Origin: Butyricimonas faecalis
Lineage (GTDB): Bacteria; Bacteroidota; Bacteroidia; Bacteroidales; Marinifilaceae
Length of the DNA stretch: 64,000 nucleotides
Assembly (NCBI RefSeq): GCF_003991565.1
Contig: NZ_CP032819.1
Location: 2,232,001-2,296,000 of the forward strand
Reading direction: 5' to 3'
Below the pieces are notes generated by a model, which saw only the letters and a list, made by a program, of their open reading frames with translations, had not been told where the DNA came from and did not search any database. Below, piece by piece: positions 4,711 to 61,623 of this stretch (its first letter is position 1; each line of letters starts with the position of its first letter). The translations under genes and the position numbers were made by a program.

Positions 4711-4711
4711 T

Positions 4712-4781
4712 TTATGATTTTTGATTTAGAGATTCAAGAATCTTGAAATCGTAAATCACAAATCCAAAATCTAAAATCAAT
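4712..4781 (+). repeat. A-rich leader repeat before pstB
   Basis: The spacer contains a T-rich stretch, an inverted pair around ATTCAAGAATCTTGAA, then AAATCTAAAATCAAT running directly into the ATG. The same AAATCTAAAATC/ATAAATC motif lies just upstream of the starts of yidC, the riboflavin synthase gene and the glycosyltransferase gene. Confidence 0.55.
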
Positions 4782-5549: not shown

Positions 5550-5552
5550 AGC

Positions 5553-5610
5553 AATTTATGATTTACTCTAAACTTTTATCTTTTAGTTTTTAACTTTTAG
5601 CTTACACCGC
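5553..5610 (+). repeat. T-rich leader repeat before phoU
   Basis: The spacer carries CTTTTATCTTTTAGTTTTTA followed by ACTTTTAGCTT just before the phoU start. The same words occur in reverse complement (AACTAAAAGATAAAAACTAA type) before yidC and before ribBA. Role unknown. Confidence 0.5.
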
Positions 5611-6288: not shown

Positions 6289-6299
6289 ATTTTGGCGCA

Positions 6300-40095: not shown

Positions 40096-42132
40096 TTACC
40101 AGATAGAAGCTCTTTCTTCAACCGGCAAAAACAAAGCATCGCCCTCTTTCACTCCAAAAGCATCGTACCACATGCTAATATGAGGAAGTGCGGCATTCAC
40201 ACGCCACCGTCCCAAAGAGTGAGGATCGGATTTCGTTTGCAAACGGATTTGCTCGTCACGAATATTACCCGCCCACACGTTACCGTATGAAAGGAAGAAA
40301 CGTTGTTCCGGCGTGAAACCATTCTCATCTTTCCCAAGCGGATTCTCGCTCATAGCTTTTTGTAAAGCCAAATATGCAACCTGCAAGCCACCATGATCGG
40401 CAATATTCTCCCCTAAGGTCAACTCTCCATTAGCCATCAAGCCGGGCAACACCTCTATTTTATTAAAGTAATCCACTAACACTTGAGCTCGTTCCTTGAA
40501 ATTCTTTGCATCTTCCGACGTCCACCAATCTTTCAAGTTTCCATCCTTATCATATTGACGACCTTGATCATCAAACCCGTGAGTCATTTCGTGACCGATA
40601 ACCACTCCGATGGCTCCATAATTACAAGCATCATCAGCATTCATATCAAAGAATGGGTATTGAAGAATAGCTGCCGGGAAACAAATTTCATTCGTCGTCG
40701 GGTTATAATAAGCATTTACCGTCTGAGGGGTCATCAACCACTCGTCTTTATCTACCGGCTTGCCAGCCTTAGCAATCATCTTATCGTAATCAAAATGATT
40801 GGAACGTACGATATTATCCCAGTAAGAATCATTTTTAATCTCCAGATTAGAATAATCCTTCCACTTGTCAGGGTAACCGATCTTCACATGGAAGGCAGCT
40901 AATTTCTCCAAGGCCTTCACTTTTGTCTCTTCACTCATCCATTCCAAACCTTGAATACGTTCGCCCAAAGCCTTCTGCAAGTTAGCCACCAACTTCGTCA
41001 TACGTTCTTTGGCCGCTGCCGGGAAATATTTCTCGGTATACATTTGACCCACAGCCTCTCCCAACACGCCATTCACCGTACTCACGGCACGTTTCCAACG
41101 CGGTTGCATTTCTTTTCTACCGGAAAGCGTTTTCCCGTAAAAATCAAAATTCTGAGCCACGAGAGCATCACTCAAATAAGAAGAAGCCGCATTGATCACG
41201 TTCCATTGCAAGTATGATTTCAACACGTTCAAATCCTCTTTTTTCAACAAATCGGCAACCGCTTTAATTTCACCCATCTGCCCCACGTTCACTTCTTGCA
41301 GATCCTTCAACCCAATCGTTGAGAAATAAACATCCCAGTTAATTTCCGGAACTTCTTTCTTCAACTGAGCTACAGAAATCTTGTTGTAGTTGGCATACGG
41401 ATCACGCAATTCTACAGCAGATTTAGAATTTTCGGCCAAACGAGTCTCCACTTTCATCACGTCAGCAGCAGCTTTTTGTGCCTCATCGGCAGTAAATCCT
41501 GCCAATTGGAACATTTTAGCCACATGCTCTTCAAATTTCGCACGAATCTCTTTCGTGTGCTCGTCATTATCCAAGTAATACTCACGTTCGCCCAAACTCA
41601 GACCTCCTTGATATATTTGCGCAATGTTCATGGAACTGTTCATATCATCGGCTCCCACGTATAACCCAAAGAAAGGTCCGAAACCATCCCGATGCATCGT
41701 GGCAACTTTCTGTGATAACACACTCCGATCCTTCATCGCGGCCAATTGATCCAAGTATCCCTTGATCGGGGCTACTCCATCCGCATTCAACTTAGCACTA
41801 TCCATGGCAATATTATACAAATCACCCACTTTCTGAGCGACACTCCCCGGTTGAGCCTGTTGTTTCGCCAGTTCCTCGATCAAGCTCTTGATCTGGGTAC
41901 GATTATTTTCTGCCAATTGATCAAACGAACCAAATCTGGAGTACTCATCCGTAAGCGGGTTCGCTTTCATCCATCCTCCACACGCGTACTGATAAAAATC
42001 ATTTCTCGGATTAGCAGTCTGATCCAGGTTTGCAAGACGAATCCCGCCTTTCTGGTCTGCTTCTTTTTTACTATTGCAACTTGTAGCCATCAATGCCAAA
42101 GCAATAAAAGGTAAATAAAATTTTGTTTTCAT
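40096..42132 (-). CDS. M13 family zinc metallopeptidase (neprilysin/PepO type), lipoprotein
   Basis: A 678-aa protein with signal ending LMATSCNSKK. The N-terminal half is the helical M13 lid; the catalytic half has HEMTH at 514-518, the third zinc ligand E575 in GENIADHGG, substrate-binding NAYYNPTTNEICFP, and the C-terminal tryptophan typical of the family (ASIW). It cleaves peptides on the amino side of hydrophobic residues in the periplasm or at the surface. It is probably the last gene of an operon with yggL and the fucosidase. Confidence 0.94.
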   Translation of the reverse strand: MKTKFYLPFIALALMATSCNSKKEADQKGGIRLANLDQTANPRNDFYQYACGGWMKANPLTDEYSRFGSFDQLAENNRTQIKSLIEELAKQQAQPGSVAQKVGDLYNIAMDSAKLNADGVAPIKGYLDQLAAMKDRSVLSQKVATMHRDGFGPFFGLYVGADDMNSSMNIAQIYQGGLSLGEREYYLDNDEHTKEIRAKFEEHVAKMFQLAGFTADEAQKAAADVMKVETRLAENSKSAVELRDPYANYNKISVAQLKKEVPEINWDVYFSTIGLKDLQEVNVGQMGEIKAVADLLKKEDLNVLKSYLQWNVINAASSYLSDALVAQNFDFYGKTLSGRKEMQPRWKRAVSTVNGVLGEAVGQMYTEKYFPAAAKERMTKLVANLQKALGERIQGLEWMSEETKVKALEKLAAFHVKIGYPDKWKDYSNLEIKNDSYWDNIVRSNHFDYDKMIAKAGKPVDKDEWLMTPQTVNAYYNPTTNEICFPAAILQYPFFDMNADDACNYGAIGVVIGHEMTHGFDDQGRQYDKDGNLKDWWTSEDAKNFKERAQVLVDYFNKIEVLPGLMANGELTLGENIADHGGLQVAYLALQKAMSENPLGKDENGFTPEQRFFLSYGNVWAGNIRDEQIRLQTKSDPHSLGRWRVNAALPHISMWYDAFGVKEGDALFLPVEERASIW

Positions 42133-42579: not shown

Positions 42580-44670
42580 TTATTCTAGTTCAACCCGTAT
42601 ATCTCGTAGCCCCATATCACTGTTATTGTTAGCAGGATGGGCCATTCCGAGACGACAATCATGAATTTCTCCTTGATAGAGTTTCATTGATTTCAAACGA
42701 AGTTTATACTCCTCTTGCTTCACATTTGGATTCATCAAATAAGTCACTTCGGTCCCATAACGATTGTGTAACTTCACCACCAACCGGTTAACCCCCTTTT
42801 TCAAATGCAGTTTGATGACTTCATTCGTCCGGGGAATTCCACCTACATACGTTCTCAGCAATACCGTCTCTCCATTTAAGGCAACCTGCACCCCATCAGC
42901 AACACCCAATTCTACCAACACATCCTGTTCTCGATCACTCGTCAACTCATGTAACACATGTATCGATTGTTTTTCCTGCATCGGAACACGTAAAGCTTTT
43001 CCCACTTTAAAATCATCCCACAAACGCCATCCCTTCACATTTTCGTTTATCTCTTCCTTGACTCCCAAAATATTTCCATTAAAACGATCTGCCCGAGGCG
43101 TGTGCATATACACCTTACCCCACGTAATCCCCTCCGGATAATTATTCAATTTCTGCACGTCTCCTCCCTCCAACGTCACCACCTGCTCCTTCCCGTCAAT
43201 AATCAAACGAAGTTCTTTTCCTCGATCTCCAGCCGTGTAAACAATTGCCGGAACAATCGTCTTCCCGGATTTTTTGAAATTCCAGCTAAAACCAACCGTA
43301 CTCCGGAAACTAGAATAATAATCCATGCTAGAATAAGCATACACGGGGATAGCATTTACCGATGATAACTCGCTTGTTTCAAGAATCTGATCAGGAATTA
43401 CCCGAAAGGCTCCAGCACATTCCAACTTCACCACGACCATCCCCCGGTCCGGCTTCACATCCCCGGGAATACTTATGGATACGGTCTGCCCATTCTGTTT
43501 CAACGTCAAGACCTTTCCGTCTGCTAACAAATTCGCTTTTTTCGCTTTCCCGATCAACCCGTTCAACATGATATTCCGATCAGCAGGAACCTGCTCAACA
43601 AATAAATAAAGATTATTCCCTTTACAAGTAATATCTCCCCATTCAACGGCATGATCAAAGGGATTCGCCTTTGTATTATAAATTGCCTCCCCGTAACGTT
43701 TCATCCATTTCCCCATGGCCAACAAGGCATCCCGTTCAAATTCCACCACGGAACCATCTCCCCTCGGACCAATGTTCAACAAGAAATTACCTCCCCGACT
43801 TACCACCTTCACCAAACTGCGCAACTTCTCATCAATCTTTTTATCCAAACTTCCCCGCTCCTGCCAAGAACGATAGCTCCATGTCTCGTCAAAAAACGAA
43901 GCCGGGGTTTGCCAGGGCACTCCAATCTTGTAATTCGGGTAAGCATTATCTGCCATTACGGCAAAATCTCCCCGGTCATTTCCCAAACGCCCGCTCACCA
44001 TACACTGCGGTTGCAAACGATTCACAAGATCATACAATTCCTTACTCTGTTGTCCACTCAAAGAACCCATATCAAACCAGATTTCAGAAACCGGACCGTA
44101 ATTTGTCATGATCTCTTCCACCTGATGCATACTGAACGCATGATGTTCCTTTGAAATCGCATCTGCATTATGAGGCGTAATACCATTGCCGGGGAAGTTC
44201 CAATCGATCAATGAATAATAAACCGCAAACTTCACCCCCTGCCGCCGGCAAGCCTCCGACAACTCTTTCATCACATCCCGCTTAAAAGGAGTAGCATCCA
44301 CGATATTATATTTAGTGTACTTGGAGTGATACATACAGAAACCGTCATGATGCTTCGACGTGAACACGATGGATTTCATCCCTGCCGCTTTTGCCAAAGC
44401 CACCACGGAATCAGCATTCCATTTCTCCGGATCGAATACTTTCGCCACCGCTTCGTACTCCGCTTTAGGAATCTTGGCAAAAGATTGTATCTGTTCGCTA
44501 TATCCGGCACGAACCGGCTGTTCCTTCCATACACCTCCCAGCTCAGAATACAATCCCCAATGGATAAACATGGAGAATTTTTGATTCACCCAATCTGGAT
44601 TGGGCTTTTGCTGTCCAAAAGCAAATTGCACGCCTAACAACAAAACAACTAAACATCCGCGTAATAACAT
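42580..44670 (-). CDS. GH29 alpha-L-fucosidase
   Basis: About 696 aa with a signal peptide (LLRGCLVVLLLGVQFAFGQQ). The GH29 barrel begins DWVNQKFSMFIHWGLYSE, followed by FTSKHHDGFCMYHSKYT and the nucleophile region EIWFDMGS, with GNFLLNIGPRGDG near residue 305. The C-terminal 250 residues form beta domains that may bind carbohydrate. It should release fucose from host or dietary glycans in the periplasm. ATG 44670 is chosen over the GTG nine bases upstream. Confidence 0.92.
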   Translation of the reverse strand: MLLRGCLVVLLLGVQFAFGQQKPNPDWVNQKFSMFIHWGLYSELGGVWKEQPVRAGYSEQIQSFAKIPKAEYEAVAKVFDPEKWNADSVVALAKAAGMKSIVFTSKHHDGFCMYHSKYTKYNIVDATPFKRDVMKELSEACRRQGVKFAVYYSLIDWNFPGNGITPHNADAISKEHHAFSMHQVEEIMTNYGPVSEIWFDMGSLSGQQSKELYDLVNRLQPQCMVSGRLGNDRGDFAVMADNAYPNYKIGVPWQTPASFFDETWSYRSWQERGSLDKKIDEKLRSLVKVVSRGGNFLLNIGPRGDGSVVEFERDALLAMGKWMKRYGEAIYNTKANPFDHAVEWGDITCKGNNLYLFVEQVPADRNIMLNGLIGKAKKANLLADGKVLTLKQNGQTVSISIPGDVKPDRGMVVVKLECAGAFRVIPDQILETSELSSVNAIPVYAYSSMDYYSSFRSTVGFSWNFKKSGKTIVPAIVYTAGDRGKELRLIIDGKEQVVTLEGGDVQKLNNYPEGITWGKVYMHTPRADRFNGNILGVKEEINENVKGWRLWDDFKVGKALRVPMQEKQSIHVLHELTSDREQDVLVELGVADGVQVALNGETVLLRTYVGGIPRTNEVIKLHLKKGVNRLVVKLHNRYGTEVTYLMNPNVKQEEYKLRLKSMKLYQGEIHDCRLGMAHPANNNSDMGLRDIRVELE

Positions 44671-44921
44671 AATAAACACTTTTACAATTTAAACACTTTA
44701 CACAAAATAGAGGCTGTAAATATAGTATTTATCAACGTTTTTAAAGCCCATTGGCCAACAAAATTATTCATAATCCAGCGTGAGTTCGATATAAGGATTA
44801 AATTATTTTTTTGAATATTACAAGCATAGTGATAAAAATATTCGGCATGTATTGTAGCATTTCAGGTTATGTAGACGCTTAATTGAAACAACAAAATTAC
44901 AACAAATCATCATCACTAGCA

Positions 44922-45323: not shown

Positions 45324-47618
45324 TTATCTCCCTCGTCTCCTAATCCATATAAAGATCGCCCAGCAGGCCAACAGACCGGGCCAAACACCCATGAGTACCA
45401 CTTTCCAGAAATACATCCAATCCATACTCACGTACATTTCATTATCAGGCGGAGTCGGACGGCGTACGTCAATCGGTACTTCTTCATTAGATAACCAGAA
45501 GAAAGAACCGGATATTAAAAAGTAGTTTACCGCGGAAATATCCTTACGATCGATACTAATTTCACCGTTACTCAGGCAATCTGCATCTCCCAATATGATA
45601 ATACGCTGTTCTTTCCCTCCCATCGGACGAGACATCGCCAAAGCCGTAACATACGAACGCTCAACTTCTCCAACCGATGGATTAAGAGAAACCGTATCAT
45701 CTAAAAAATCAACCGTTTCCAATTCATTCCAACTACCAATCGTGTCACTCACGAACAAAGGCGTGATCGAAAATCCTTTATCCTCGAAACACTCCAATCC
45801 TGTCGTCCCCGGCATAGTCACCACGTATTCCTTACGAATCATCTGGTCAAAAATATATGAAAACTCTCCGGCCTCTTTGGTCGGTGTGGCTACGATAAAA
45901 TCAGGCTGGAAATGCTCACTCTTCTTCACCAACCGTCCCGGCATAAACCGTACACCGAAAGGTTCCACCAATGGATTCATAAATTCCTGACGACGAGGTT
46001 CCCCGGCTATCAATAGATTTCCCCCGCGAGCTATATAAGCATCCAGATTTGCTCGTTCATTCTCGGTCATCGGACTTCTCATATCCGCAATCACGATAAT
46101 GTCCACCTGTTCAGGGATCGGTTTGTCCAACGTCACCTCCGTAAAGTCAAAACCTTGATTAATCAAGGAATAGCGGAACGGCTTATCTTGAGCAAAGCGG
46201 TTGTAGTCTCGATCGCCTTCCCGGATACAATCCCTTTCCCCATGTCCTTTCACAAAACCGACAAGGGGCAATTCCATCACCAGGCGCTTAAAGGCAGCAG
46301 AAATTTCCGTCTCGAAGGGGAAGCGTTTTATATCATCGAATACCCGCAAGAATGTCTTCTCCCCGTTATCCCGTTCCAACAAGCGCACGAAACGATTTCC
46401 TTCCGGCCGAAGATCCACCATCTTCCGCACTTCCTCCGGACGCATAAACATATTGGAATCCAAATTCCAGATTTCAGCCCGTTTCAACATTCTCTCCCGA
46501 TCGGATAAATTAGGATAAGCCTTGTCCAATTCCGGATTCTTCGCCTTATCGTAATAATACACGTATTTCATTTTAATCTCCGGTTTAAACCGGGTATACA
46601 TTTTGAGACGTTTCTGATCTTTATTCACGTTCCGAGGCAAACCGATCCAATAGTTCTCCTCCAATATATTCACGAAAGTTGTTATCGTCAAACCTCCATC
46701 CATCTGAGCCACGATATCCTGACTATTAGGTGTCAGCGTTCGTTGTTTCGTGGCTGTAGTATCATAGAAACACATCAGTTTCGGACGAGAAGTCAGGTAA
46801 CCCAATAACATGGCAATCACGATAACAGTTCCATATTTCCCTACAGTCGTCATCCACGTGGTCTTCTGCCGACGGGACTGCAATCGGATGATTGAAAGGA
46901 AAAGGAACAAAGCTACCACGATAACAAAGTAAAGCACATCTTCACTACAAATTAAACCGCTTACAAACTCCTGCGCCCTACCGTTAATCGCCAACCAATA
47001 GGTTATATCACGCACGAACTCAATATCCTGCCACAAACCCCCTACTAAATTCAACACCGCCAATACCGCCAAAGTTCCCATGGCTGCCACAACTTGATAG
47101 GAAGTAATACTCGACATGAACAACCCGATCGCCGCGTAAGCACACACGAGCAGGTAAAGGCCGAGCATCCCGGAAAGGATCAAAGGTATATCTGCCGATT
47201 TTATTGTAATAGCAGCAAATATAAGATAGACGGCAAAAATACACATCAGCACCAAGTTATAGATCATCATCGAAAGATATTTCCCCAGAATAATCTGTGT
47301 GTTGGTTACAGGAGAAGAGTACAGTAACTTAATCGATCCACTGCTCAGTTCCCGACTCATTAATCCCATCGTCAGCAACGGTATATAAAGATAAAGATAC
47401 TGTTGCATCGCTGTAAACATTCCCCGCCATCCGGCAAAGACGTTCATTGTTACGTTATAAAGGCCATACCCTAACTCCTGGTTCCTCACGCAACCTGCCA
47501 ATCCGTTCGAAAACACCAAACTCGCCTGAAAAGTGAATACCACCAGAATCAACCACGCAATCGGAGAGTAAAACAAAGTTTGCAACTCCGTGCGAGCCAT
47601 TTTATATATTGTCTTCAT
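45324..47618 (-). CDS. Fused ABC-2 permease and GldG-like protein (GldF-GldG type)
   Basis: A 764-aa inner-membrane protein. Residues 1-250 form an ABC-2 permease with six membrane helices (starting LQTLFYSPIAWLILVVFTFQ, with MGLMSRELSSGSIKLLYSSP between helices). A further helix near 268-285 leads into the periplasmic GldG-like domain (residues 290-730) with VDIIVIADMRSPMTENERAN and GGNLLIAGEPRRQEF, and a final helix near the C-terminus. In Flavobacterium, GldF and GldG are separate and work with GldA in gliding; related fused transporters occur in non-gliding Bacteroidales. It pairs with the ATPase gene 21 bases upstream. Confidence 0.85.
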   Translation of the reverse strand: MKTIYKMARTELQTLFYSPIAWLILVVFTFQASLVFSNGLAGCVRNQELGYGLYNVTMNVFAGWRGMFTAMQQYLYLYIPLLTMGLMSRELSSGSIKLLYSSPVTNTQIILGKYLSMMIYNLVLMCIFAVYLIFAAITIKSADIPLILSGMLGLYLLVCAYAAIGLFMSSITSYQVVAAMGTLAVLAVLNLVGGLWQDIEFVRDITYWLAINGRAQEFVSGLICSEDVLYFVIVVALFLFLSIIRLQSRRQKTTWMTTVGKYGTVIVIAMLLGYLTSRPKLMCFYDTTATKQRTLTPNSQDIVAQMDGGLTITTFVNILEENYWIGLPRNVNKDQKRLKMYTRFKPEIKMKYVYYYDKAKNPELDKAYPNLSDRERMLKRAEIWNLDSNMFMRPEEVRKMVDLRPEGNRFVRLLERDNGEKTFLRVFDDIKRFPFETEISAAFKRLVMELPLVGFVKGHGERDCIREGDRDYNRFAQDKPFRYSLINQGFDFTEVTLDKPIPEQVDIIVIADMRSPMTENERANLDAYIARGGNLLIAGEPRRQEFMNPLVEPFGVRFMPGRLVKKSEHFQPDFIVATPTKEAGEFSYIFDQMIRKEYVVTMPGTTGLECFEDKGFSITPLFVSDTIGSWNELETVDFLDDTVSLNPSVGEVERSYVTALAMSRPMGGKEQRIIILGDADCLSNGEISIDRKDISAVNYFLISGSFFWLSNEEVPIDVRRPTPPDNEMYVSMDWMYFWKVVLMGVWPGLLACWAIFIWIRRRGR

Positions 47619-47639
47619 CTCGTTATCTATTTTTAGTCA

Positions 47640-48560
47640 TTATTTCTTTGATAATTCTGCAAAAATCTCATCCAAGGAACTTTTCTCCTGACGGATTTCG
47701 ACCAATCGCCATCCTTTGGTCACGCTGGTCTCGACCAGACGTTCCGTTGCTTCCAGCGCATCCGAAAATTGAATCCGGAACTTCGATCCGCCCAATTCCT
47801 CCACGGCAACCACACCCGGAATCTCCCGAATCTCTTCTACTGGCGGAGTAGCTATTAACGACACAAATAACGTATTAGGAACAATATAATTATCGAACTC
47901 ATCCATGGTGCCGGAAAAGACTACTTGTCCTTCCTCGATCATCCGGATATAATCACAAGTTGCCTGTACTTCAGAAAGGATATGCGTGGATAAAATCACG
48001 GTTCGATCTACGGCAATCTCCCGGATCAGTTCCCGAATTTCCATAATCTGATTCGGATCAAGCCCATTTGTCGGTTCATCCAATACCACGAAGTCCGGAT
48101 TATGGATGATTGCCTGCGCTATACCCAGACGTTGCTGGTATCCACCGGACAAGTTACGGATCAATCGCCGACTGAAATGTGAAATTCCACAACGTCCCAT
48201 CACGTCTTTCACGGCTCCCTGTACCTCATGAGTAGGGATTAGGCGCATATTGGCACAATGCACCAGATATTCCTCCACCGTCAAATCCATGTGCAGGGGC
48301 GGTTTCTGCGGCAAAAAGCCCAAATGTTTTTTGGCCTCGACCGGATTCTCCCGCAAATTGATACCCTTAATGTACACTTCCCCTTCCGTCTGTTTCAACA
48401 CACCACACATGATATTCATCGTGGTTGACTTTCCTGCCCCGTTGGAGCCTAGCAACCCGTAAATGCCATTTCGCGTAATTTCAAAATTAATATCTCGAAT
48501 CGCCCACTGAATACTGTAACGATGAGATAAATGCTCCACTTTTATAATAGATTCTTCCAT
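47640..48560 (-). CDS. ABC transporter ATPase (GldA-like, ABC-2 type)
   Basis: A 306-aa ATPase with Walker A GSNGAGKST at 38-46, Q-loop in LGFLPQKPPLH, signature LSGGYQQRLGIAQ, Walker B FVVLDEPTNGLDP and H-loop STHILSEV. The C-terminal 80 residues form the extra domain typical of ABC-2 exporters (CcmA/GldA group). It energises the fused permease encoded next. Direction of transport is probably export or membrane-complex assembly, inferred from family. Confidence 0.93.
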   Translation of the reverse strand: MEESIIKVEHLSHRYSIQWAIRDINFEITRNGIYGLLGSNGAGKSTTMNIMCGVLKQTEGEVYIKGINLRENPVEAKKHLGFLPQKPPLHMDLTVEEYLVHCANMRLIPTHEVQGAVKDVMGRCGISHFSRRLIRNLSGGYQQRLGIAQAIIHNPDFVVLDEPTNGLDPNQIMEIRELIREIAVDRTVILSTHILSEVQATCDYIRMIEEGQVVFSGTMDEFDNYIVPNTLFVSLIATPPVEEIREIPGVVAVEELGGSKFRIQFSDALEATERLVETSVTKGWRLVEIRQEKSSLDEIFAELSKK

Positions 48561-48883: not shown

Positions 48884-51481
48884 TTACTTGTCAGCTAACA
48901 TCTTATTAATCTTATACAGCAAATACTCGTAATGCGACTTCGTTTCCCCGGAACTCTTCGTTACGGCTCCTTTCAACAAATTCTGTATTTTGAACAACAT
49001 GTCGAAATAGTAATTCACCGGGACATAATCACTGGGCATCACCACTTGTTTCATCGGATAAAATCCGCTTTGCTCTTCCGGATTTATCCCTTTCTCCGGC
49101 AGAACAGCAAATTGTTCACGTATCAAATCCAACTGTTTCCGATCAATCACTTCCGAAGAAATTGCCTCCTCATGGCCTGTCGCTACAATCCCTTTTTGCG
49201 GTGTAAAGTTACCCGCCGTAGTGGCAATCGTAGAGGATGCAACCACACTACCCAAGAACTCCTTCTGCAATTCCATCTCGTATTTCTCCAACGGACGATT
49301 CTTCAACGTTCCATCCCATACGTTTTTATAGATATCATCGACATACTCGGCCAACGAATAATCTCCACCTTTCTCTGCTCCGAGAGCCACGTATTTCAAA
49401 CGGAAGGTCAAGGTTCCCAAGATAAAACTCCGAATTTGATCTACATTGGAATTTCGAATTCCCAACTCTTTCTCCACAGCCTTGTTATCCAACCAAGCAA
49501 GATCTTTCGCCATATCGATCATGCACTTCACGGCAGCCTTCTGTATCGCACCGGGAACAACCACATAACTCGGTTCCTTTTCCGTGGAAAAAGCTTCCAT
49601 TTGGTAAAAACCACCCAAATTCACAGACACGTCATTAATCCGCTTTTTCAACTGATTGCGTAACATGTTGTACAACTGGCTTCTAAAAGTCAAGTCTTCA
49701 TCTCCCTCGGCATACCAATCATAGAAATTCCGAACGGCAATCTTTAGATTGTTCACAGCATACTCCAAAGCCTTCAAATGATCATCTCCCAAATCTCCGG
49801 CAAAACAACGGGGATCGTAGTAATAATAAGGCATCTTCCCGAAAGTATAGTTCGGATTTGTTCGCCCCTCCCGAATCCAACGATCCAAGGTTGCAAATTC
49901 ATCTTTCGGTGTAGAGGCCATCGGAATCGGTTCATACAACCACTTGATCACGTAATAATCGTACTCGCCTAATTCCCCACCAGGAACCATTCTCACTCCC
50001 TTTTCCACATCCCCCGGCTGAGCGATATAATTACACGGCACGTAATCCATCACAGAAGGACTCAATCCATGCTTCCGCGTGAAGGATGGAGAACGTAACG
50101 AATCAACCGGATACACGGCAGATGCACCTACATTGTACACCAAGCCTAAGTTAATACCAGCTTCCCGCATAATCACTGAACGTATCATTTCCCCCATCAT
50201 TTCCTCGGAGAAATGATTTGTCCGAACACTCGGATCTGCCGCCATAGTGGTCAATATCCGGTTTGCTTTCAAACTAGACATTAACCCGTCATAGACATAC
50301 AGGGAGGCATTCAATATCTCTCCCGTACGAGGGTCCACGTGCATTGAATTCTGTATATCGAGCCACAACGGGGCATACCTGATCGTAGAATACTTGATAT
50401 TATTAGCATTAAAATCCGGATCATCTTTCGGGAAATCCATTACCCGGATCACATTTTTAAAACCAATTTTCTTGAAAGCCTCATTCCATGCCTCAATTCC
50501 TTCTTTAATGTAAGGTTTCCACGCCTTTGGCATCAACGTGTCCATATAGAACACGATTGGTTTCTTTACCTCAACGGTTTCTCCCCGACGATGAGCCGCT
50601 TCATCTACCGGTTCAACACGCCAACGTTTCGTGTAAAACGTGTGGTCCAACCCCTTCCGATCGCTCTCAACCTGTGAAACTTTCATGAAAGAGACGCCCA
50701 AGCGGGGATCGGCCAACCGGGGTTGCATCGGTTCTTCCGGCAGTAACATCAACATCTTATTCGTTGTCACGGAAACTTTCGTATCTCCGGGGATCACCTT
50801 AAAAGCCCCAAACAGATACTGGTTTTCGATAAATCCCAAATCACATGTCACCACGATATTATTATCGAAAGCGTCAACGTCTTTCAACAATGAACACTCC
50901 TTTTTGTATTCATGTGTTCTGGAAATCAGTCCATAGAATGAATTTCCACCGATAGACGCAAATGGTGTTGTGTACGGGGAATACTCCATGAACAATGGGG
51001 TCATATCCACCACAACTGCCGTACTATCCGGTGTATAAGCCTTTATTTTGAACGAGCCGTACACACCCCCGGCATTCGACCGTTCGATAGCTTGGTTCCA
51101 ATTCGTTTCCGAACTATTATTCAAAGGTTTATCTGTCAAGAATATTCGGGCCTGTAATGTCGAATCCAAACGAGTGAAACGAAATGGCAAAGCATATCCA
51201 GCGAACTGCCCAACCACACCTTCTCCATTGTCACTGATATCCTCGATAGAAGAGGTCAGCATCATATCTTTACCCAACAATTTTATCGGGAATTCGACCA
51301 ATACTTTGCCTCCTACCTTATGGATCGTCATCAACCCATGAGCCGTTTTCACCTGCTTACCCTTGAATAATTTCTAGTAAGCCGTCAATGTCTCTTTCTT
51401 ATCCTTTTCCTTCGCTTGTCCTTGTACCCCCCAACCGAACAGGAAAAAAGAAAGAAAACAGATATATAATATATTTCTCAT
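48884..51481 (-). pseudogene. Paralogous metalloprotease-family protein with lost zinc site and an in-frame TAG
   Basis: From the ATG at 51481 the frame gives a signal peptide (NILYICFLSFFLFGWGVQG), then TAG at 51376-51374 where the upstream paralogue has a glutamine codon (YQKLFKGK), and then 822 further uninterrupted codons from a GTG at 51352. It aligns along its length with the product of 51509-54172. At residue about 439 the paralogue's HEVGHCLALMHN is replaced by REAGINLGLVYN, so all three zinc histidines are gone, while the Met-turn region (SVMDYVPCNYIAQPGD) is kept. The rest is well preserved, so it was probably a non-catalytic partner or decoy before, or despite, the nonsense codon. 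As annotated from the GTG it would be cytoplasmic. Confidence 0.85.
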
Positions 51482-51508
51482 ATTCTTTCGTTTATTAGAA
51501 AATCAAAC

Positions 51509-54172
51509 CTATTTCAATGCTTGCTCTATCTTGTACAACAACAACCGATAATGCTGACGAGTATCTTCTGATCCGGTATTTACCTTACTCTTTAACAATG
51601 TCTGAATTCGCTTCAACATATCGAAATATACGTGATCCAACGGTTCGATTACCAGATTGGTATTCACGTTCACACCATAACCGAACCACTGTTTTTCAGC
51701 CATATTCAATGGTTGTTGCGCCACATCCGTCTCCGGAGCCTCGGCACAAGGTTGCATCGTCTCCGCGTTAGAGAAACCTCCTAACACTTCCTGCGATAGT
51801 ATTCCATACCGTTCCCGGCTCATCAACTTCACCTGCTCCGGCACCTCGACCATCTTACAATTGTCGGTTAGTGACAACGGTTTCCCGGACATACCCTTTT
51901 TCCCCAAGTCCGTAACGAGCAGTATTTGTTTTATCATCTCCATCTGCATCTTTTTATCCTGCGTGGTCAACGTCTTTCCCTGACGAGTAGCAGCAAAAGC
52001 GAAATCCTGCAGGTGCATCAAGAATTCTCTCGTGGTATAAGTATCCTTACTATCATCTTTTGCGGCACTCAAAGCCACCAACCAGCGTCGGGCTAATAAT
52101 GCCCCGAATATGCTTTCTTCCAACTGAGTCGAGATATTACTCATCAAAGGTAATTTCTGTTGCAAATCAGGAGCATTCAGCCATTCCAAGTCTCTTATTT
52201 GTCCCAACAAGAAATCGACAGCTCGTTTCTGCTTCTCTTTCGGCACCACCGAATAACTCGGTAATTCATCTCCATCATATCGCTCGTTCAAATATATTCC
52301 CCCAATATTGAACATCACGTGATTCACGTAACGCACGTACTGGTAAATAATTTCATTGTACATATTCTGCTGGAATCTGTAATCCGGATCATCCTGTTTC
52401 ACCCATTCACCCATATTCGCCAACACGTACTTCAAATTCTTCACTCCATAAGTTGCCGATTTTACAGCATCATCTCCCAAATCTTCTTCCACCGAACTAG
52501 GGTCTAGTTTTGTCGATAACTGTTGTTTCCCGTAACGATAAATCGGATTTCCCGATCTTTCCGAAATCCAACGACTTAATGTAGGAACTTCATCTTTCGA
52601 ACTCTTGGCATCCAGCAAAGGAGTATACAGCCATTGAATCGTAAAATAATCATACAAACCCAATCTAGGCGGGGTCAATCTCACACCACGTTCCTTGTCT
52701 CCCGGTTGAGCGATATAATTATTCCGGGCATAATCCATAATCGAATACGTTGTTCCGTATTTTTGAGTAAATGAAGGCGAACGTAACGAGTCCGTCGGGA
52801 TCGACGCGGAACCAGACATATTATGCATCAACGCCAGGCAATGTCCCACCTCATGTGACACCACGTAACGAATACAATCTCCCAACACGTCTTCATCAAA
52901 AATCACCTTACGTACATCCGGATCTGCCGGAGAAGTTTGCAAGAATCGCCAATCATGTACCAACTGAATCAAATTGTGATACAAATAGACAGAGGCATTC
53001 AGAATCTCCCCGGTTCTCGGGTCTGTCCATGAAGGTCCCATGGCATTCTCCACTTGCGAAGGGGAATAGCGAATACAAGAATACTTTATGTTATCCGGAT
53101 CAAACTCCGGATCATCCAGCGGAAAGTCTTTTGCCATGATCGCATTCTTAAAACCAATTCTCTCGAACGCATCCTTCCATTCTTCTACACCAGCCCTAAT
53201 GTACTTTTTCCAACTCTCCGGGAAAGCATTATCCACGTAAAAAACAATCGGTTTCTTCGGTTCTACAAGCTGTCCCATCCGGTAAGCCGTTTCATCCGAT
53301 GGCTCCAACCGCCAACGTTGAGCGTAATATATATGTTTCAATCCGGAATCGCCATTCCGAAAATCCGACACTCCTTGATAAAATATCCCGATACGAGGAT
53401 CTGCCATTCGAGGACGCATAGGCTCCTCCGGCAAAAGGATAAAACTACGTGTCATCAAAGAAGTAAACGGAAGTTTATAGATATAATAATACCTTTGATT
53501 CCGCAGATTCACCTCGTAACTCAAAGATGACTGTACACTCACGTTATCCTCAAACGCTTTTATCTTACCCAATTGGGAATTATCCTTTTTAAATTCTTTC
53601 ACAATCCATCTTCCTCCCCAAGTTGCCGGAGCATAAGCAGAGAAAGGAGTTAACTGCTCATCATCCCGTAGGAAGAAATCGGTCATATCGACAACAACCG
53701 CCGTGCTATCCGGATTATAAGCCAATATTCCGCTATTGTACATCACGGCAGGCTTCATGCTCTCCCGAATCCGTTGTGTTACGTTTGCCAATTCCGACGT
53801 GTAAGCATGACTTACTTGACGTAAACTGATAACCGTATCTGTCTGGGTAAACTGCACACACAAGGGCTCAGTCGGTTTCTCTCCCACATTTCCAAACAGA
53901 TTATTGGTCGTTTCAGAAATCGTTGATCCCAATAGCATATCCTTCCCCAACAAATTTCTAGGTATCTCAAAATATACCTTTCCATTCATCTTGTGAATGG
54001 TCAGTAATCCTTTTACCGTTTCACAGGCCTTACCTTTGAATAGCTTTTGATAAGGTGTCTCTTTTTTCACCTCTTTCACCTCTTTTTTCTTTTTCCGAGC
54101 GAACCCGTCCTGTACTCCACAGGTAAACAGGAACAGCACAACGAAGAAAAAACTCACTGATAATTTTTTCAT
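51509..54172 (-). CDS. Large zinc-dependent metalloprotease (DUF5117/DUF4953 type)
   Basis: An 887-aa exported protein (signal LSVSFFFVVLFLFTCGVQDG). The first half carries the DUF5118/DUF5117-type beta domains (KGLLTIHKMNGKVYFEIP), and the catalytic part has HEVGHCLALMH at 440-450, a metzincin-like HExxHxxxxxH, followed by SLRSPSFTQKYGTTYSIMDY with the Met-turn and NNYIAQPGD. The C-terminal 250 residues are helical. It follows the PKD-like gene of locus 2 after a 227-base gap with a repeat fragment. A role in cutting a captured protein or peptide outside the inner membrane is inferred. Confidence 0.9.
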   Translation of the reverse strand: MKKLSVSFFFVVLFLFTCGVQDGFARKKKKEVKEVKKETPYQKLFKGKACETVKGLLTIHKMNGKVYFEIPRNLLGKDMLLGSTISETTNNLFGNVGEKPTEPLCVQFTQTDTVISLRQVSHAYTSELANVTQRIRESMKPAVMYNSGILAYNPDSTAVVVDMTDFFLRDDEQLTPFSAYAPATWGGRWIVKEFKKDNSQLGKIKAFEDNVSVQSSLSYEVNLRNQRYYYIYKLPFTSLMTRSFILLPEEPMRPRMADPRIGIFYQGVSDFRNGDSGLKHIYYAQRWRLEPSDETAYRMGQLVEPKKPIVFYVDNAFPESWKKYIRAGVEEWKDAFERIGFKNAIMAKDFPLDDPEFDPDNIKYSCIRYSPSQVENAMGPSWTDPRTGEILNASVYLYHNLIQLVHDWRFLQTSPADPDVRKVIFDEDVLGDCIRYVVSHEVGHCLALMHNMSGSASIPTDSLRSPSFTQKYGTTYSIMDYARNNYIAQPGDKERGVRLTPPRLGLYDYFTIQWLYTPLLDAKSSKDEVPTLSRWISERSGNPIYRYGKQQLSTKLDPSSVEEDLGDDAVKSATYGVKNLKYVLANMGEWVKQDDPDYRFQQNMYNEIIYQYVRYVNHVMFNIGGIYLNERYDGDELPSYSVVPKEKQKRAVDFLLGQIRDLEWLNAPDLQQKLPLMSNISTQLEESIFGALLARRWLVALSAAKDDSKDTYTTREFLMHLQDFAFAATRQGKTLTTQDKKMQMEMIKQILLVTDLGKKGMSGKPLSLTDNCKMVEVPEQVKLMSRERYGILSQEVLGGFSNAETMQPCAEAPETDVAQQPLNMAEKQWFGYGVNVNTNLVIEPLDHVYFDMLKRIQTLLKSKVNTGSEDTRQHYRLLLYKIEQALK

Positions 54173-54399: not shown

Positions 54400-55947
54400 T
54401 TACTCGTAACGCTTAAATGCCCAGTTAAAAGAACCTCCCCATTTCCATTCTATATCCACAATCCGTCCCAAATCGGAAACATGGAATAATAACCCTTTCT
54501 CTCCAGGATTCTCATCTGCCAACACTTCCGTGCTCAACTCATAGATATAGAAATTTCCGTCATCCAGAGCCACACCAATCTCTCCGGCATCAGCATCTTG
54601 CAATATCTCCACGACATTTCCATTTGTATAATCCGCAAATAACTTCACGATCTTCGTATTTACATCATAAAAGTACAATTTACTCCCCTCTCCCATGAAA
54701 AGATAAGAACTGGGGCGAATCCGGAAATACACCGTATTGTCTGAAATAACATTACTACCGGCAAAAAGTTCCTGCGTACAATTAGAAATCTTGAAACTAC
54801 TATAATTGAATCCCATATTCTGATAGTAGTAGTTTCCCGTGCTTTCTTCTTTCAGTATAATATTAAGTCCACTACCCTTAGCATAATCGCCCAAGTACAT
54901 AATCTTATAACCGGTCAAATCAGTCAATTTAACCACGTTTGGATCATCCGGAGCATAAGTAAACTCAACCGGACGACTATCCGAATTGCTATTAAAGCGA
55001 GTTGCTCGACCCACCACGCGGTTATTTCCCTCGTCATACATCAACACCACGCCACAATCCCGCGTATCCAGATCAAAGAATTGAGTGATTTGCCCACCAT
55101 TGGTTGTCCCTGAAAAATAAAGCGGAATATCAATAAAAGCCGCCACGTGCTGTATCTCTGCACCGGGATTTCTTTTCCAGTAAACATCTCCATTCGCACT
55201 TAACACGAAATCCTGCCATCCACCATTACGTACCTCCACGGGCTCTAATCCGGCAGGATAAGTACTTCCAGGAAATTCTTCATGAAGTGCCAATACTTTG
55301 GCAAAATCCATTCCGCTCAAATAATAAGCACCTCCGGTACGTTGCACAACCATGACTTCATCCACCTCGCCTCCTGTTATCATGTTTTCCAATTTCAACG
55401 GCCCCGTTCCTAACGGACTATCGGGATACAACGTCGCATATACATCCGGGTAAGCCACCCACTCGTAATGTATCTTTTTATCTTCATCCTTCCAGCTATC
55501 CCGCCGAACATAACTCAAGCTTGTCCGATTGTCCTTTTCCGACAGAATAAGCCATCCGACCTTATATGGAGATTTCACCTCTATTGACGTGTGACTATCG
55601 TGAAACACGAGTCCGGTTTGCCGGTCTGTCATATAGAAATTCACGTCAAATTGCCCACAACTCGTCGGGATATACTCAAAATTCCGATCTGTCGAAACAA
55701 CATTTCCCAATCCCATCTCCCAACGATAATCATAAGCTAACGTGTCGCGATCGGGATACTTCCACGTCATTTTCGGTACAATGCGTACCGTATCCCCCAA
55801 AACAATTGATTTCTTCGTTAAAGAAGTTACAACATTCAGCGTAACATCATTATAATCAACAAGGTCGTATTTACCTTTATCCTCGTAACATGCGCTAAAG
55901 CAAAAGTTCACGAACAAAAAGAATAATATAAATCTTTTCATAAACAT
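54400..55947 (-). CDS. PKD-like family surface lipoprotein, SusCD locus 2
   Basis: A 515-aa lipoprotein (signal ending FCFSACYEDKGKYDLVDYND). The N-terminal 130 residues are a PKD-like beta-sandwich (LAYDYRWEMGLGNVVSTDRN), and the rest is beta-rich with repeated YF/YY strands. It corresponds in order and beginning to the protein at 25876-27351, though the mature parts have diverged. Likely a surface ligand-binding accessory to SusCD 2. ATG 55941 is an alternative start. Confidence 0.8.
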   Translation of the reverse strand: MFMKRFILFFLFVNFCFSACYEDKGKYDLVDYNDVTLNVVTSLTKKSIVLGDTVRIVPKMTWKYPDRDTLAYDYRWEMGLGNVVSTDRNFEYIPTSCGQFDVNFYMTDRQTGLVFHDSHTSIEVKSPYKVGWLILSEKDNRTSLSYVRRDSWKDEDKKIHYEWVAYPDVYATLYPDSPLGTGPLKLENMITGGEVDEVMVVQRTGGAYYLSGMDFAKVLALHEEFPGSTYPAGLEPVEVRNGGWQDFVLSANGDVYWKRNPGAEIQHVAAFIDIPLYFSGTTNGGQITQFFDLDTRDCGVVLMYDEGNNRVVGRATRFNSNSDSRPVEFTYAPDDPNVVKLTDLTGYKIMYLGDYAKGSGLNIILKEESTGNYYYQNMGFNYSSFKISNCTQELFAGSNVISDNTVYFRIRPSSYLFMGEGSKLYFYDVNTKIVKLFADYTNGNVVEILQDADAGEIGVALDDGNFYIYELSTEVLADENPGEKGLLFHVSDLGRIVDIEWKWGGSFNWAFKRYE

Positions 55948-55957
55948 TCTATTTTAA

Positions 55958-56650
55958 TTATCCGACTACCAATGCCACAGTCATTTCTGTTCCGTCATCT
56001 TCACGCACCATCTCGTTCGCATCTTTCTTCTTTTGCAGGTAATGTTTGAATATAATCGAGTAATAACGAAGTTCTTCTACGTTATCGCTATCTATATCCG
56101 CTTTACCCGTCTCTTGAATAAACAAGCGGTACTTCTTATCCGAATATTTTCCCAGATAATCCCGAGTCACCTTATCGGTCCACCAATTCGGCTTAGCCAC
56201 CACATTGGAAACGTAGATAATTGCCGAACGGCATTCAGTTTGCCCCAACATGAAATCAGCAGTCGGCTCCAGTTTTAAGTACAATCGTAATGCTACATTC
56301 GATATTTCCTCCGTTTTAATAAAGGCGATCCGACAAGTATCACGAACTTTACCGGGCTTCATCGTGAATTTCTCCGGCAACCTGTAATTCGCTGTCGTGG
56401 CAGTTGACTTTTCTTGATCCACGCTGATCTTATACTCTTGTTCCCTCTCAGAAGGCAATCCGATCACCTCCACTTCCACGGGAAATTCCAATTCATTATC
56501 ATTCGGGTAAGCCAAGAACGAACAAACCGATGAATCCGTTACCACCTTCACGAACTGAAGATAATTATCACCATCGTATGTTTTCATTGCATCCTTCGAA
56601 CAGGCTCCCAACACAAGCATAATTCCTAAAAACAAATATATCTTTCTCAT
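55958..56650 (-). CDS. DUF4843 lipoprotein, SusCD locus 2
   Basis: About 230 aa, lipoprotein signal ending LVLGACSKDAMKTYDGDNYLQF, beta-rich body, and WWTDKVTRDYLGKYSDKKYR near residue 158 as in the locus 1 homologue (WWTKWERYFGEFSREKY). ATG 56650 is preferred over the GTG at 56656. Function not known; it is always with SusD in such loci. Confidence 0.83.
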   Translation of the reverse strand: MRKIYLFLGIMLVLGACSKDAMKTYDGDNYLQFVKVVTDSSVCSFLAYPNDNELEFPVEVEVIGLPSEREQEYKISVDQEKSTATTANYRLPEKFTMKPGKVRDTCRIAFIKTEEISNVALRLYLKLEPTADFMLGQTECRSAIIYVSNVVAKPNWWTDKVTRDYLGKYSDKKYRLFIQETGKADIDSDNVEELRYYSIIFKHYLQKKKDANEMVREDDGTEMTVALVVG

Positions 56651-56667
56651 AATCACTCGATTTTATA

Positions 56668-58173: not shown

Positions 58174-61100
58174 TTAGAAACTAGCATTTAAAGTAAACGT
58201 AAATGTCCTGGCGAACGGATAATTTAACCCCATCTCCCGTTTAATCGTTGACATTGTCGCAATATCTTTCATATTAAACTGTAACTTCAACGAACTCAAG
58301 TGTATTTTCCGCAACCATACAGGATTAACGTCATAGCCGACAGAAAGAGAATTAAAGACCACGTTATTATTCTTCTGCACAAAACGAGAAGTTGAACGAG
58401 TCACGTACAAACGATCTTTTATATCCTTTAAAGGAGTAACATCCCCGACCTTCTGCCAACGATCTGAACTCACCCTTTTATCCGCGTTATATTTAATTAA
58501 GTTCGCGTTCTCCACGTTATTCACCAAAGTCGAGTTGTACTCGTCACCACCATATTCATAAAGGAACGTCGTGTAAAGTGTAAAATTCCGATAACGCACA
58601 TTCAGCCCGAAAGCCCCTTGTATCTTCGGCTCGGTATCCCCGATTTTCTGTTGTTCATTCGACTCCCACGTGTATGTCAATGTACCATCCCGTTTCACGT
58701 AAACCTCCTGGCCATTAGCCGGATTAATACCCATGGACTTCATCCCGTAAATCGCCGTCAAGGAACTTCCCTCCTCGTACTTCATAAACGGTTTGGCATA
58801 CTTCGAATCCTCGGAAGGCGTTCCGGATGATGAATAATAATCCTGGAAATACTCATCAATCCGTTCGTTGTACTGTTTCAAAGACTCTGAAATCTTCAGT
58901 ATCTTATTCTTATTATGAGCCAAATTTCCGAACACGATAACATCCCAATCTTTATCACTATAAGCCCGCACGTTCAAATCAAGCTCAACTCCTTCATTCA
59001 AGATCTCACCCATATTATCCGTATACTTCGTGAAACCGGAAGACGTTGGAAGAGAAACTTCTGTCACCAAATCAATTGTTTTCTTGTAGTAGTAATCAAA
59101 CCCTAAAGTCACCCGGTTATTCCACGTGACGATATCCGTACCGATATTCCAAGACAATTGCTTCTCCCAAGTCAAGTCCTCATTTCCCATATAAACCAAG
59201 CTGGCCCCGATACCCGTCTGGTACCAATCGTCCAATAATACTTCGTAAGTATTCCGGGCCATGTAAGGTTGGAAATTCGATTTACCGGTCTGGCCCACAT
59301 TCCCCTTTATCCGGAACTGGTTTATCCACTTACTTCCTTTTAAGAAAGCATAATTATGTACATTTATTCCCGTCCCGACAGACCAGAAAGGAGCCCATTT
59401 ATTATCCGTTCCGAATTCGGACGACCCATCATAACGGAATGAAAAATCAGCCAGATAAATATCATTATAACTATAATTCATCATTAGGAACACTCCGAAC
59501 AAACGGGTCTTGTTGTCAGTAAACGTCGGTTTCTTCACGACCTCATAAGCATACGCCGGAGAGTGCCTGTAAGCATCCGGGAATCCCCGATAATGTGTGT
59601 AGGAGTAAGAAATATTGGAATATGTCGCGTTGAATCCTAAAGAGAAATTCAAATTATGTAACCCGAACAAACGATTATAAGCAGTAAACACATTCGTATT
59701 CCACCGGGTTGTTGTCGTCTCGGCTTCTGTCAACTCACCCCGTAGAAATGCCGTTGCACTATCCTTGTACTTGGCTGATTCCGGATCGGTAAACACCTCG
59801 CTCTTATCCAACTTATAGCTGATCGCGAACTGTCCTTTCACTAACCAATAATCATTCACGTACCAATTTAAAGCCAAATTATCCGTCCACTCCTTGTAAT
59901 TACTCTTGTTAAAATTACCCAATGTTGCCTCATACAAAGGATTGATAAAAGTTTCGCCATAATTACGCAGTGGTAATTTCTTGAGCAACTTTCCATCTTT
60001 ATCTTCCCAAGATTCATAAGGATGTTTGTTCGTGTAATCTCCAAAAGAGCCATAAGGCGATGCTTTCGAAGTCATGATATCATAAGAAATCTTGTTCTGC
60101 ATCTGGAAACCTTTGTAACGATATTCAAGTGTCAAGCCCGTACCAATTCGGTCACGCAAAGATTTCTTCATCACACCGTTCTGATTATCATAGCGCAATT
60201 CTATGCCAAACCGGATGACATCTGACCCACCCTCAACATAAACACTATGCTTATGGTTAAACATCGTCGTCAACGGCTGTGACATCCAGTAATAATCTCC
60301 TCCTGCCAAAATCACATCCTTTTTGTCCAAATAGATCCCGTACTTGTAGGCCTCATCTCGTTCATAATTTGCACTATTAGGGTTCCCCTCATAAACCCCG
60401 GCAGCCCATTCGGTTTCCAAATTCTGTTGGGCATTCATCATATTATAACTACTTAAATCAGGAGCCGTGATCTCGTAATTACCGCTATAACTCACCACGA
60501 AACGTCCGGGACGGGGAGCTATTGTTTCAATCACGACAACACCGTTAGAAGCCCTTGAACCATACATGGCCGTGGCCGCCGCATCCTTCAATATCGTGAT
60601 ATCCTTGATTCTGTTCACGTCAAAATCATATACTTTCTCCACAGACACCTCAAACCCATCCAAAATGAATATAGGAGTATTCGGGTTATTGGTTATCGCG
60701 AACTGTGACACGTCAGTAGCCTCCAAAGCATCCAGTTCTTTCACACCCGTAATTCCCGACCGTCCTCTCACGTAGAACTCCGGTAAAGTATTCGGGTCCG
60801 ATCCCATCAGATTATTCTTCATGATTCGCAGTGATGGATCAAACACCTGCAGGGCATCGATCACGTTCCGCCCCGCCACTTTCAACACATCCTCCCGACT
60901 CACTTGCGTGGCCGTTCCCGTGAAACTAGACTTCTTGATATTCGCGTATCCGGTCACCACCACATCCTCCAAAGCGATCTTATCCTCCTTCATCACGACA
61001 CGCAAATCTTTACGCACCTCGCCCGGTTTCAACGGTGATATTTTAACCACCTGAGTCTCCATCCCCACGAAGGTAAACACCAATGTAACGGTATCCGCGG

Positions 61101-61623
61101 GTAAAGCGACACTAAAAAGACCATCCGCACTCGTTACTACCCCCGTGTTCGTTCCCCTCACCACGACCGTCACACCCGGTAACGGTTTCTCCATCTCGTC
61201 CACAACCTTTCCTTTAATCAACCGGACCTTGTTTTTCGCCGTGGTATCTCGTACTGCCACGACTTGATTCTTTTTAATGATAATCAACCGATCCTCGACA
61301 GAATAGGTTAAATCGGTACCTTTCAGACACTCTTCAAGCACCTCGTCGATACTCACAGATTTGAACCGCTTGTTTAGTTTCGTCACCTGAGCCACTTCGC
61401 TATCCTTGTAGATAAAATAATAGTCGCTGTGTTGACGAATCTCCTTCATGAGATCCTCAAATGTGGCATTTTTCAAGTTAAAACTAAAAACGACATTTTG
61501 CGAATGTACTGATGCAGATAAATGCATGGCTGTACAAAAAAGAAAAAGAGCTAGAAAACGCATAGTCCATAAAATTTTTCGCATCCCCGACGAGCGGGAA
61601 TAGCATTCTCGATTTTTTTTCAT
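58174..61623 (-). CDS. SusC/RagA-family TonB-dependent transporter with STN domain, locus 2
   Basis: A 1149-aa transporter. Order of parts: signal helix (residues 18-42), STN domain (FNLKNATFEDLMKEIRQHSD), CarboxypepD_reg-like domain (GKVVDEMEKPLPGVTVVVRG), plug with FILDGFEVSVEKVYDFDVNR and ILKDAAATAMYGSRASNG, and barrel ending FTLNASF. The STN domain indicates signalling to the FecR and sigma factor encoded upstream. It probably imports the ligand handled by the downstream protease pair. Confidence 0.94.
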   Translation of the reverse strand: MKKNRECYSRSSGMRKILWTMRFLALFLFCTAMHLSASVHSQNVVFSFNLKNATFEDLMKEIRQHSDYYFIYKDSEVAQVTKLNKRFKSVSIDEVLEECLKGTDLTYSVEDRLIIIKKNQVVAVRDTTAKNKVRLIKGKVVDEMEKPLPGVTVVVRGTNTGVVTSADGLFSVALPADTVTLVFTFVGMETQVVKISPLKPGEVRKDLRVVMKEDKIALEDVVVTGYANIKKSSFTGTATQVSREDVLKVAGRNVIDALQVFDPSLRIMKNNLMGSDPNTLPEFYVRGRSGITGVKELDALEATDVSQFAITNNPNTPIFILDGFEVSVEKVYDFDVNRIKDITILKDAAATAMYGSRASNGVVVIETIAPRPGRFVVSYSGNYEITAPDLSSYNMMNAQQNLETEWAAGVYEGNPNSANYERDEAYKYGIYLDKKDVILAGGDYYWMSQPLTTMFNHKHSVYVEGGSDVIRFGIELRYDNQNGVMKKSLRDRIGTGLTLEYRYKGFQMQNKISYDIMTSKASPYGSFGDYTNKHPYESWEDKDGKLLKKLPLRNYGETFINPLYEATLGNFNKSNYKEWTDNLALNWYVNDYWLVKGQFAISYKLDKSEVFTDPESAKYKDSATAFLRGELTEAETTTTRWNTNVFTAYNRLFGLHNLNFSLGFNATYSNISYSYTHYRGFPDAYRHSPAYAYEVVKKPTFTDNKTRLFGVFLMMNYSYNDIYLADFSFRYDGSSEFGTDNKWAPFWSVGTGINVHNYAFLKGSKWINQFRIKGNVGQTGKSNFQPYMARNTYEVLLDDWYQTGIGASLVYMGNEDLTWEKQLSWNIGTDIVTWNNRVTLGFDYYYKKTIDLVTEVSLPTSSGFTKYTDNMGEILNEGVELDLNVRAYSDKDWDVIVFGNLAHNKNKILKISESLKQYNERIDEYFQDYYSSSGTPSEDSKYAKPFMKYEEGSSLTAIYGMKSMGINPANGQEVYVKRDGTLTYTWESNEQQKIGDTEPKIQGAFGLNVRYRNFTLYTTFLYEYGGDEYNSTLVNNVENANLIKYNADKRVSSDRWQKVGDVTPLKDIKDRLYVTRSTSRFVQKNNNVVFNSLSVGYDVNPVWLRKIHLSSLKLQFNMKDIATMSTIKREMGLNYPFARTFTFTLNASF

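Follow-up and report, generated by a model that had tools for sequence, protein, structure and literature searches.

A metzincin-like protein and a tandem paralogue without a zinc site beside a SusC/SusD importer of Butyricimonas faecalis: a candidate two-subunit peptidase

Where two adjacent genes encode paralogues of one metalloprotease, and one of the two has lost the residues that would hold the zinc, the question to be asked is whether the second protein is simply decaying or has some function of its own, and, if the latter, what that function might be. The pair considered here lies on the minus strand of a stretch of 64,000 nucleotides from the genome of Butyricimonas faecalis (contig NZ_CP032819.1, positions 2,232,001 to 2,296,000), referred to below as the window and numbered from its own first letter; the two proteins are called MP1 and MP2.

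Two paralogues and their locus

MP1 (51509-54172, minus strand; 887 aa, with a signal peptide) has the Pfam architecture DUF5118-DUF5117-DUF4953 of a metzincin-like protease. Its zinc motif HEVGHCLALMHN occupies residues 440-451 (52820-52855, minus), the HExxHxxxxxH pattern of a catalytic metzincin appearing there as HEVGHCLALMH, and its Met-turn, SIMDY, residues 477-481 (52730-52744, minus); judged by its motif, MP1 is the presumptive active member of the pair. In MP2 (frame 48884-51481, minus, interrupted by a TAG and listed as an ORF of 822 aa at 48884-51352) the corresponding place is taken by REAGINLGLVYN (residues 396-407 of the GTG-start ORF; 50132-50167, minus), with REAGINLGLVY instead of HExxHxxxxxH. 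The initial annotation had described paralogues that align over their full length, the second having all three zinc-binding histidines replaced but the Met-turn and most of the fold kept, and this description holds well: BLASTP aligns the two neighbours over 858 columns (38% identity, 546 bits), H440, H444 and H450 of MP1 correspond to R396, I400 and Y406 of MP2 (GTG numbering), the glutamate of HExxH and the Met-turn (SVMDY, residues 433-437; 50042-50056, minus) are retained, and the same three Pfam domains (PF16313 with PF17148 and PF17162) lie above gathering score in both proteins. As far as sequence comparison goes, the altered zinc site is due neither to chance nor to misalignment, because the alignment is gap-free in this region and the same dead motif is found in 119 of the 120 close MP2 relatives listed (the exception, P0072, having neither this motif nor HExxH). 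That MP2 retains a metzincin-like fold is a prediction, from a confident monomer model that has matches among solved metzincins; a Foldseek search with the full model gave no match at E ≤ 0.001, and matches to 14-3-3 and helical-repeat structures were taken as chance helical matches. Sequence searches against solved structures gave at most a marginal match to EcxA (E 0.45 and 0.019), no NCBIfam model matches MP1 or MP2, and Pfam finds in them no families besides the three already named.

The MP2 gene of this strain has a feature that is absent from the initial annotation, namely an in-frame TAG at codon 36 (51374-51376, minus), right behind the signal peptide. The natural start is likely to be not the GTG at 51352 but the ATG at 51481, which lies 27 nt past the MP1 stop and opens a frame with a typical signal peptide. 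Past the TAG the frame stays open for 829 codons, and a relative with an uninterrupted frame of 865 aa (P0001) is recorded at 100% identity across the aligned part, although its letters show one residue that differs. From its sequence, the copy in the window is probably broken, yielding a truncated or leaderless protein, and, since the stop codon lies in the partner gene, the pair probably does not work as such in this strain. Given the 829 codons left open and a gene that shows no relaxed selection, the stop is thus a recent event or a sequence error. A second dead partner gene with an in-frame TAG was seen in genome G403 (locus L181, about 4125-6600, minus); these are the only two TAG-interrupted cases among the 59 dead genes surveyed below, and no other recovered row shows an internal stop.

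Upstream of the pair, all on the minus strand, lie genes for a PKD_2 (PF16407) protein (54400-55947) and a DUF4843 protein (55958-56656), both assigned by Pfam, a SusD-like lid protein (PF14322; 56668-58161), a SusC/RagA TonB-linked importer (58174-61623), and, again by Pfam, a FecR-like anti-sigma factor (61725-62873) and an ECF sigma factor (63047-63619). The SusC reaches 632 bits with TIGR04056 against a cut-off of 368, which with the SusD-like protein marks a SusC/RagA importer operon. Downstream, likewise minus, are an ABC ATPase (GldA/DrrA-like; 47640-48560) and an ABC permease/auxiliary protein (GldF/GldG-like; 45324-47618), both below the family cut-offs and both conserved beside orthologous MP2 genes; in locus L152 this GldA/GldF/GldG-like group (45324-48560 in the window) looks doubled. 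Further downstream on the same strand are an M13 peptidase (40096-42132) and an alpha-L-fucosidase family protein (42580-44679). Scans with consensus promoters and terminators stayed at chance level.

The genes BT2261-2264, like RagAB, encode a SusCD system. To judge from similarity, peptide import is the likely task of the SusC/SusD of the window, because RagA is the best-scoring solved SusC (6sli, E 7.5e-51, as against 9.6e-43 for the non-RagA homologue 8aa4 and 4e-17 for the peptide importer BT_2264) and because RagAB and Bt2261-64 bind oligopeptides, according to PMC7782687. Unlike those oligopeptide importers, with which it shares the SusC/SusD system, the window has a metalloprotease pair added, and an oligopeptide ligand is predicted for it from sequence nearness.

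Place and conservation of the dead genes

A family member without at least one catalytic position is here called dead, and 59 such members were found in a survey of 14 genomes and 13 further loci. An active member lies directly upstream of 57 of them; one of the other two lies directly upstream of an active member, and one at a contig edge, where its position is undecidable. The genome of the window (4.98 Mb) has 22 DUF4953 genes, 18 with HExxHxxxxxH and four without, these four being MP2 and three others, each directly behind an active gene. In six Butyricimonas genomes Pfam gave 168 matches to the family, for which 166 ORFs were recovered (the two without an ORF are in G001, and one of the 166 is a contig-end fragment); of the members with the motif in view (n = 165), 131 are intact, and the other 34 are without one or more of the catalytic positions. 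Writing A for active and d for dead, the arrays of this set are 71 A, 29 Ad, 5 AAA, 3 AAd, 3 AA and 2 AdA. No dead gene in the six genomes is solo or first in its array, all 34 lying directly downstream of an active member, and the single-gene loci with motif in view are active without exception (71/71). Eight more genomes, with 57 of 64 matched places covered, gave 25 A, 9 Ad, 3 AA, 1 AdA, 1 AdAdA and 1 Ad with a TAG-split dead gene, and again every dead gene (13/13) is directly downstream of an active one. The 13 further loci were chosen after matches to dead queries and so give no frequency (the matched gene was dead in nine and active in four, G727, G935, G970 and G373); they comprise 10 Ad, 1 A, one dead gene at a contig edge and 1 dA, 10 of their 12 dead genes lying directly downstream of an active gene. 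A rule that the dead gene is always downstream is therefore not absolute. The exception, locus L210 of G727, comes from another class of the phylum; its dead gene (RQVGFRLGFKPN) precedes the active one, and this is the sole reversed order seen.

The family is unevenly distributed within the genus, G003 and G005 having 45 and 54 DUF4953 genes where G001 and G002 have 13 and 14, which is a large lineage-specific expansion, and in G407 five members follow one another in the order active-dead-active-dead-active (L158). The third genes of three-gene arrays show a graded loss (L078, L101, L116, L125, L023), ordered from the Met-turn tyrosine, with zinc motif intact, through the third histidine to the whole motif. 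HExxH is kept and the third histidine alone is missing in four of the 59 dead genes, where it is Asn (L116, L125) or Asp (L146, L171); in some metzincins zinc is bound by Asp, and to judge from that residue the last two may still bind zinc and hence not be dead. All three domains were found by Pfam in each of seven other dead genes scanned, the DUF4953 match of L185 being short and partial (30.3 bits, cut-off 24.2). Signal peptides, called by a crude hydrophobicity rule, were assigned to 56 of 57 dead members and to 187 of the 188 active ones; five dead and two active rows also have a lipobox-like stretch.

Orthologous MP1/MP2 pairs with the same type of dead motif occur in five genomes (G000, G003, G004, G005 and G407), the MP2 orthologues at about 70% identity reading RETGINLGL[VL]YN. 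In all five, PKD_2, DUF4843 and SusD precede the pair and the two ABC genes, ATPase and permease, follow it; a SusC gene upstream was found in the window and in G004, the stretch covered being shorter in the other three, and in the longer loci L152-L154 a SusC-like frame lies upstream of the pair. In another family, the pattern [RK]E..[FYL].LGL..N of a dead protein from G310 is found in all 41 nearest proteins listed, the query's own record included; 49 of the 118 proteins listed for that query are dead, one of them named Pedobacter insulae.

By the Nei-Gojobori method, dN/dS is 0.079 and 0.076 for MP2 and 0.095 and 0.050 for MP1; other dead groups give 0.105, 0.168, 0.081 and 0.058, their partners 0.054, 0.092, 0.055 and 0.025. 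Where dS is about 1 or less, all six comparisons of dead orthologues thus lie at 0.06-0.17 (the dead comparison G000/G407 has a dS of 2.8, and among seven active comparisons one has infinite dS and one a dS of 1.38). The dead genes are therefore constrained, though less so than their partners in five of the six comparisons. What would be looked for in a functional pseudoenzyme, catalytic residues lost with purifying selection kept, is thus seen in MP2, at a dN/dS of 0.08 and with a conserved motif. The initial annotation had named just such conservation across species as the test of a functional role, and an intact HExxH at the same position elsewhere as the sign of decay; the former was found, and the orthologues seen have no such intact motif. 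Its wider proposal, that an active and an inactive member form a conserved pair encoded with a SusCD system, is well supported by the five orthologous pairs, the low dN/dS and the mirrored partner trees described below, and this arrangement has moreover been reached more than once.

In clade II, the group of dead genes that contains MP2, the dead members vary at positions around the motif where their active partners are invariant, and seven positions, all outside the motif, are kept in the dead members but not in the active partners; no new His, Cys or Asp is found among positions conserved solely in this clade (29 of 30 rows compared, L208, with no partner in view, being left out). The pair is dispensable at the genus level, because G001 and G002 have no MP2 orthologue, their best match being 38%. 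A wide distribution of MP2 was not found either, one of 393 order-level genomes, its own, matching at E ≤ 1e-188. A dead protein from L178 matched two of 395 phylum-level genomes at E ≤ 1e-140, all three places being active genes, that in G727 with a dead gene beside it, and a dead query of the class of about 790 aa matched three of 393 order-level genomes at E ≤ 1e-90, the two other than its own having single active genes.

History of the losses

On a FastTree phylogeny of 247 rows at least six changes between the active and dead states are forced, the dead groups being clade II (30 rows, two families), an older class of about 790 aa (19+2), the genes in third place in AAd arrays (2+1), those in the middle of AdA arrays (3) and the dead gene of G727 (1); on a mixture-model tree of 38 rows at least five are forced. 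For these 38 chosen rows an AU test of a single dead clade (p=2e-58) rejects the idea that all dead genes go back to one ancient loss. We read the trees, from which L135_9441 and both pieces of L181 were left out, as implying at least four separate losses of catalysis, if catalysis was never regained; that figure is a reading of the trees, the AU test bearing on the single clade.

Distances among dead members correlate with those among their active partners (r=0.95 for 19 pairs and r=0.89 for 21 pairs of the older class), and do so within single genomes as well (r=0.98 and r=0.70, six pairs each), a third such test on five pairs of the older class not reaching significance (r=0.81, p=0.11). 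Nearest neighbours agree between the partner trees in 12 of 19 and 14 of 21 cases, and the dead members have evolved faster than their partners, by a factor of about 1.3-1.5. This mirroring could be due in part to duplication of whole operons and not to contact. The pair stays together in changing surroundings: behind SusC-SusD-DUF4843-PKD_2, before SusC (L121), and with or without the ABC genes.

What the second protein may do

Our leaning, a slight one, is towards MP1 and MP2 as the catalytic and pseudo subunits of a two-subunit periplasmic metallopeptidase behind the SusC/SusD importer. The RagAB-like importer would carry oligopeptides into the periplasm, where MP1 would cut them; MP2 would be bound to MP1 as its heterodimer partner, stabilising it and shaping or gating its substrate chamber. 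We infer physical contact, the periplasmic site and the peptide substrate from the lost zinc site with its retained domains and predicted fold, from the signal peptides of the family, from the near-constant place behind an active gene, and from purifying selection, the correlation of the partner trees and the independent loss of catalysis on more than one occasion. Against this stand the 71 active loci of a single gene, the faster evolution of dead genes, the dispensability of the pair within the genus, and the stop codon in the window. Among the roles suggested in the initial annotation (binding partner, inhibitor or substrate-presenting subunit), that of a structural partner is the one we favour, and presentation of substrate through the old active site is disfavoured because the residues surrounding the motif vary across dead clade II.

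Tandem coding, co-encoding in nearly every case and the same predicted compartment would also suit a dedicated inhibitor or zymogen-like regulator that keeps MP1 inactive until peptides are imported; but MP2 retains the whole three-domain architecture (822 aa past the stop, 865 aa in intact relatives) and not an inhibitory piece, and the AAd and AdA arrays pair one dead gene with two active ones, and we consider this unlikely. Operons of this kind have SusD-like proteins with a binding function, and MP2 might similarly be a peptide- or ligand-binding protein of the same pathway that makes no contact with MP1. The form of the pseudo-site, specific to each orthologue group in the two motif counts given above, is what one might expect of such a binder, although the residues around it, invariant in the active members, are variable in clade II, and a free binder need not directly follow an active paralogue, as 57 of 59 dead genes do; this we think rather improbable.

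Two further possibilities receive little credence. The in-frame TAG, its counterpart in L181 and the faster evolution of dead genes could all be signs of simple decay, which is nonetheless rejected for the MP2 gene, where it is scarcely credible in view of the low dN/dS in six of six comparisons, the motif kept in nearly all listed relatives and the long open frame past the stop; for the allele of the window strain, with its TAG, decay is retained. The nearest orthologues of MP2 still have the glutamate of HExxH, the Met-turn and fold are likewise kept, and catalysis might have changed to another metal or a non-metal mechanism, but other members of the same clade have lost the glutamate (QVAG, QITG, QQMG) and the clade-specific positions offer no His, Cys or Asp in its stead, which makes such a change highly improbable.

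By analogy, MP1/MP2 as a two-subunit peptidase would work like TldD/TldE, the mitochondrial processing peptidase (MPP) or prokaryotic M16B pairs, without belonging to either family. The TldD/PmbA-type domain expected of TldD/TldE is absent from MP1 and MP2, and Pfam finds no M16 domain in them. According to PMC5810440, TldD/TldE of E. coli is a heterodimeric metalloprotease of paralogous subunits with the metal motif in one, activity having been seen only when both were present. In having one subunit with a metal motif and one without metal ligands it resembles MP1/MP2; it differs in its HExxxH motif and in a fold without known relatives, unrelated to that considered here, and its heterodimer is established where that of MP1/MP2 is proposed. 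The pairing of MP1/MP2, unlike that of TldD/TldE, seems to have arisen more than once within one family. Among M16 peptidases, MPP alpha/beta and the prokaryotic M16B proteins likewise combine active and inactive homologous subunits, the latter from a two-gene operon, but they have an inverted HxxEH motif and form another family, and no SusCD link is mentioned in the part of PMC11266112 consulted. The ADAM pseudopeptidases (PMC11266112) are metzincins that have lost zinc ligands and taken on partner roles; unlike MP1/MP2 they are animal membrane proteins and not a tandem, co-encoded active/inactive pair. A literature search on DUF5118/DUF5117/DUF4953, pseudoproteases and pseudopeptidases, SusCD and Butyricimonas, which covered few subscription papers, did not find the family or the pairing.

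Among the matches listed, nearly all named rows of dead members bear the public name 'zinc-dependent metalloprotease', and such naming inflates counts of proteases and hides a probable subunit, in a family with up to 54 copies per genome. On a broader view, which we regard as evenly poised between right and wrong, dedicated pseudo-subunits would have arisen again and again in Bacteroidales (on at least four occasions), each from a tandem copy of a periplasmic DUF4953 metzincin. The outcome would be a large set of two-subunit peptidases that is still diversifying, many of them tied to a SusCD importer of their own and duplicated with it as one unit, and a further subunit type would be emerging in the three-gene arrays, where intermediates retain HExxH but no longer have the third histidine or the Met-turn tyrosine. 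If this is true, losses of catalysis that recur at one and the same gene position, with graded intermediates, would provide a natural experiment in how single-chain or homodimeric enzymes become heterodimers. The recurrence of active plus inactive pairing in related bacteria suggests two-subunit proteases, and from the active/pseudo pairs comes a hypothesis on peptide foraging in the gut that experiments can test.
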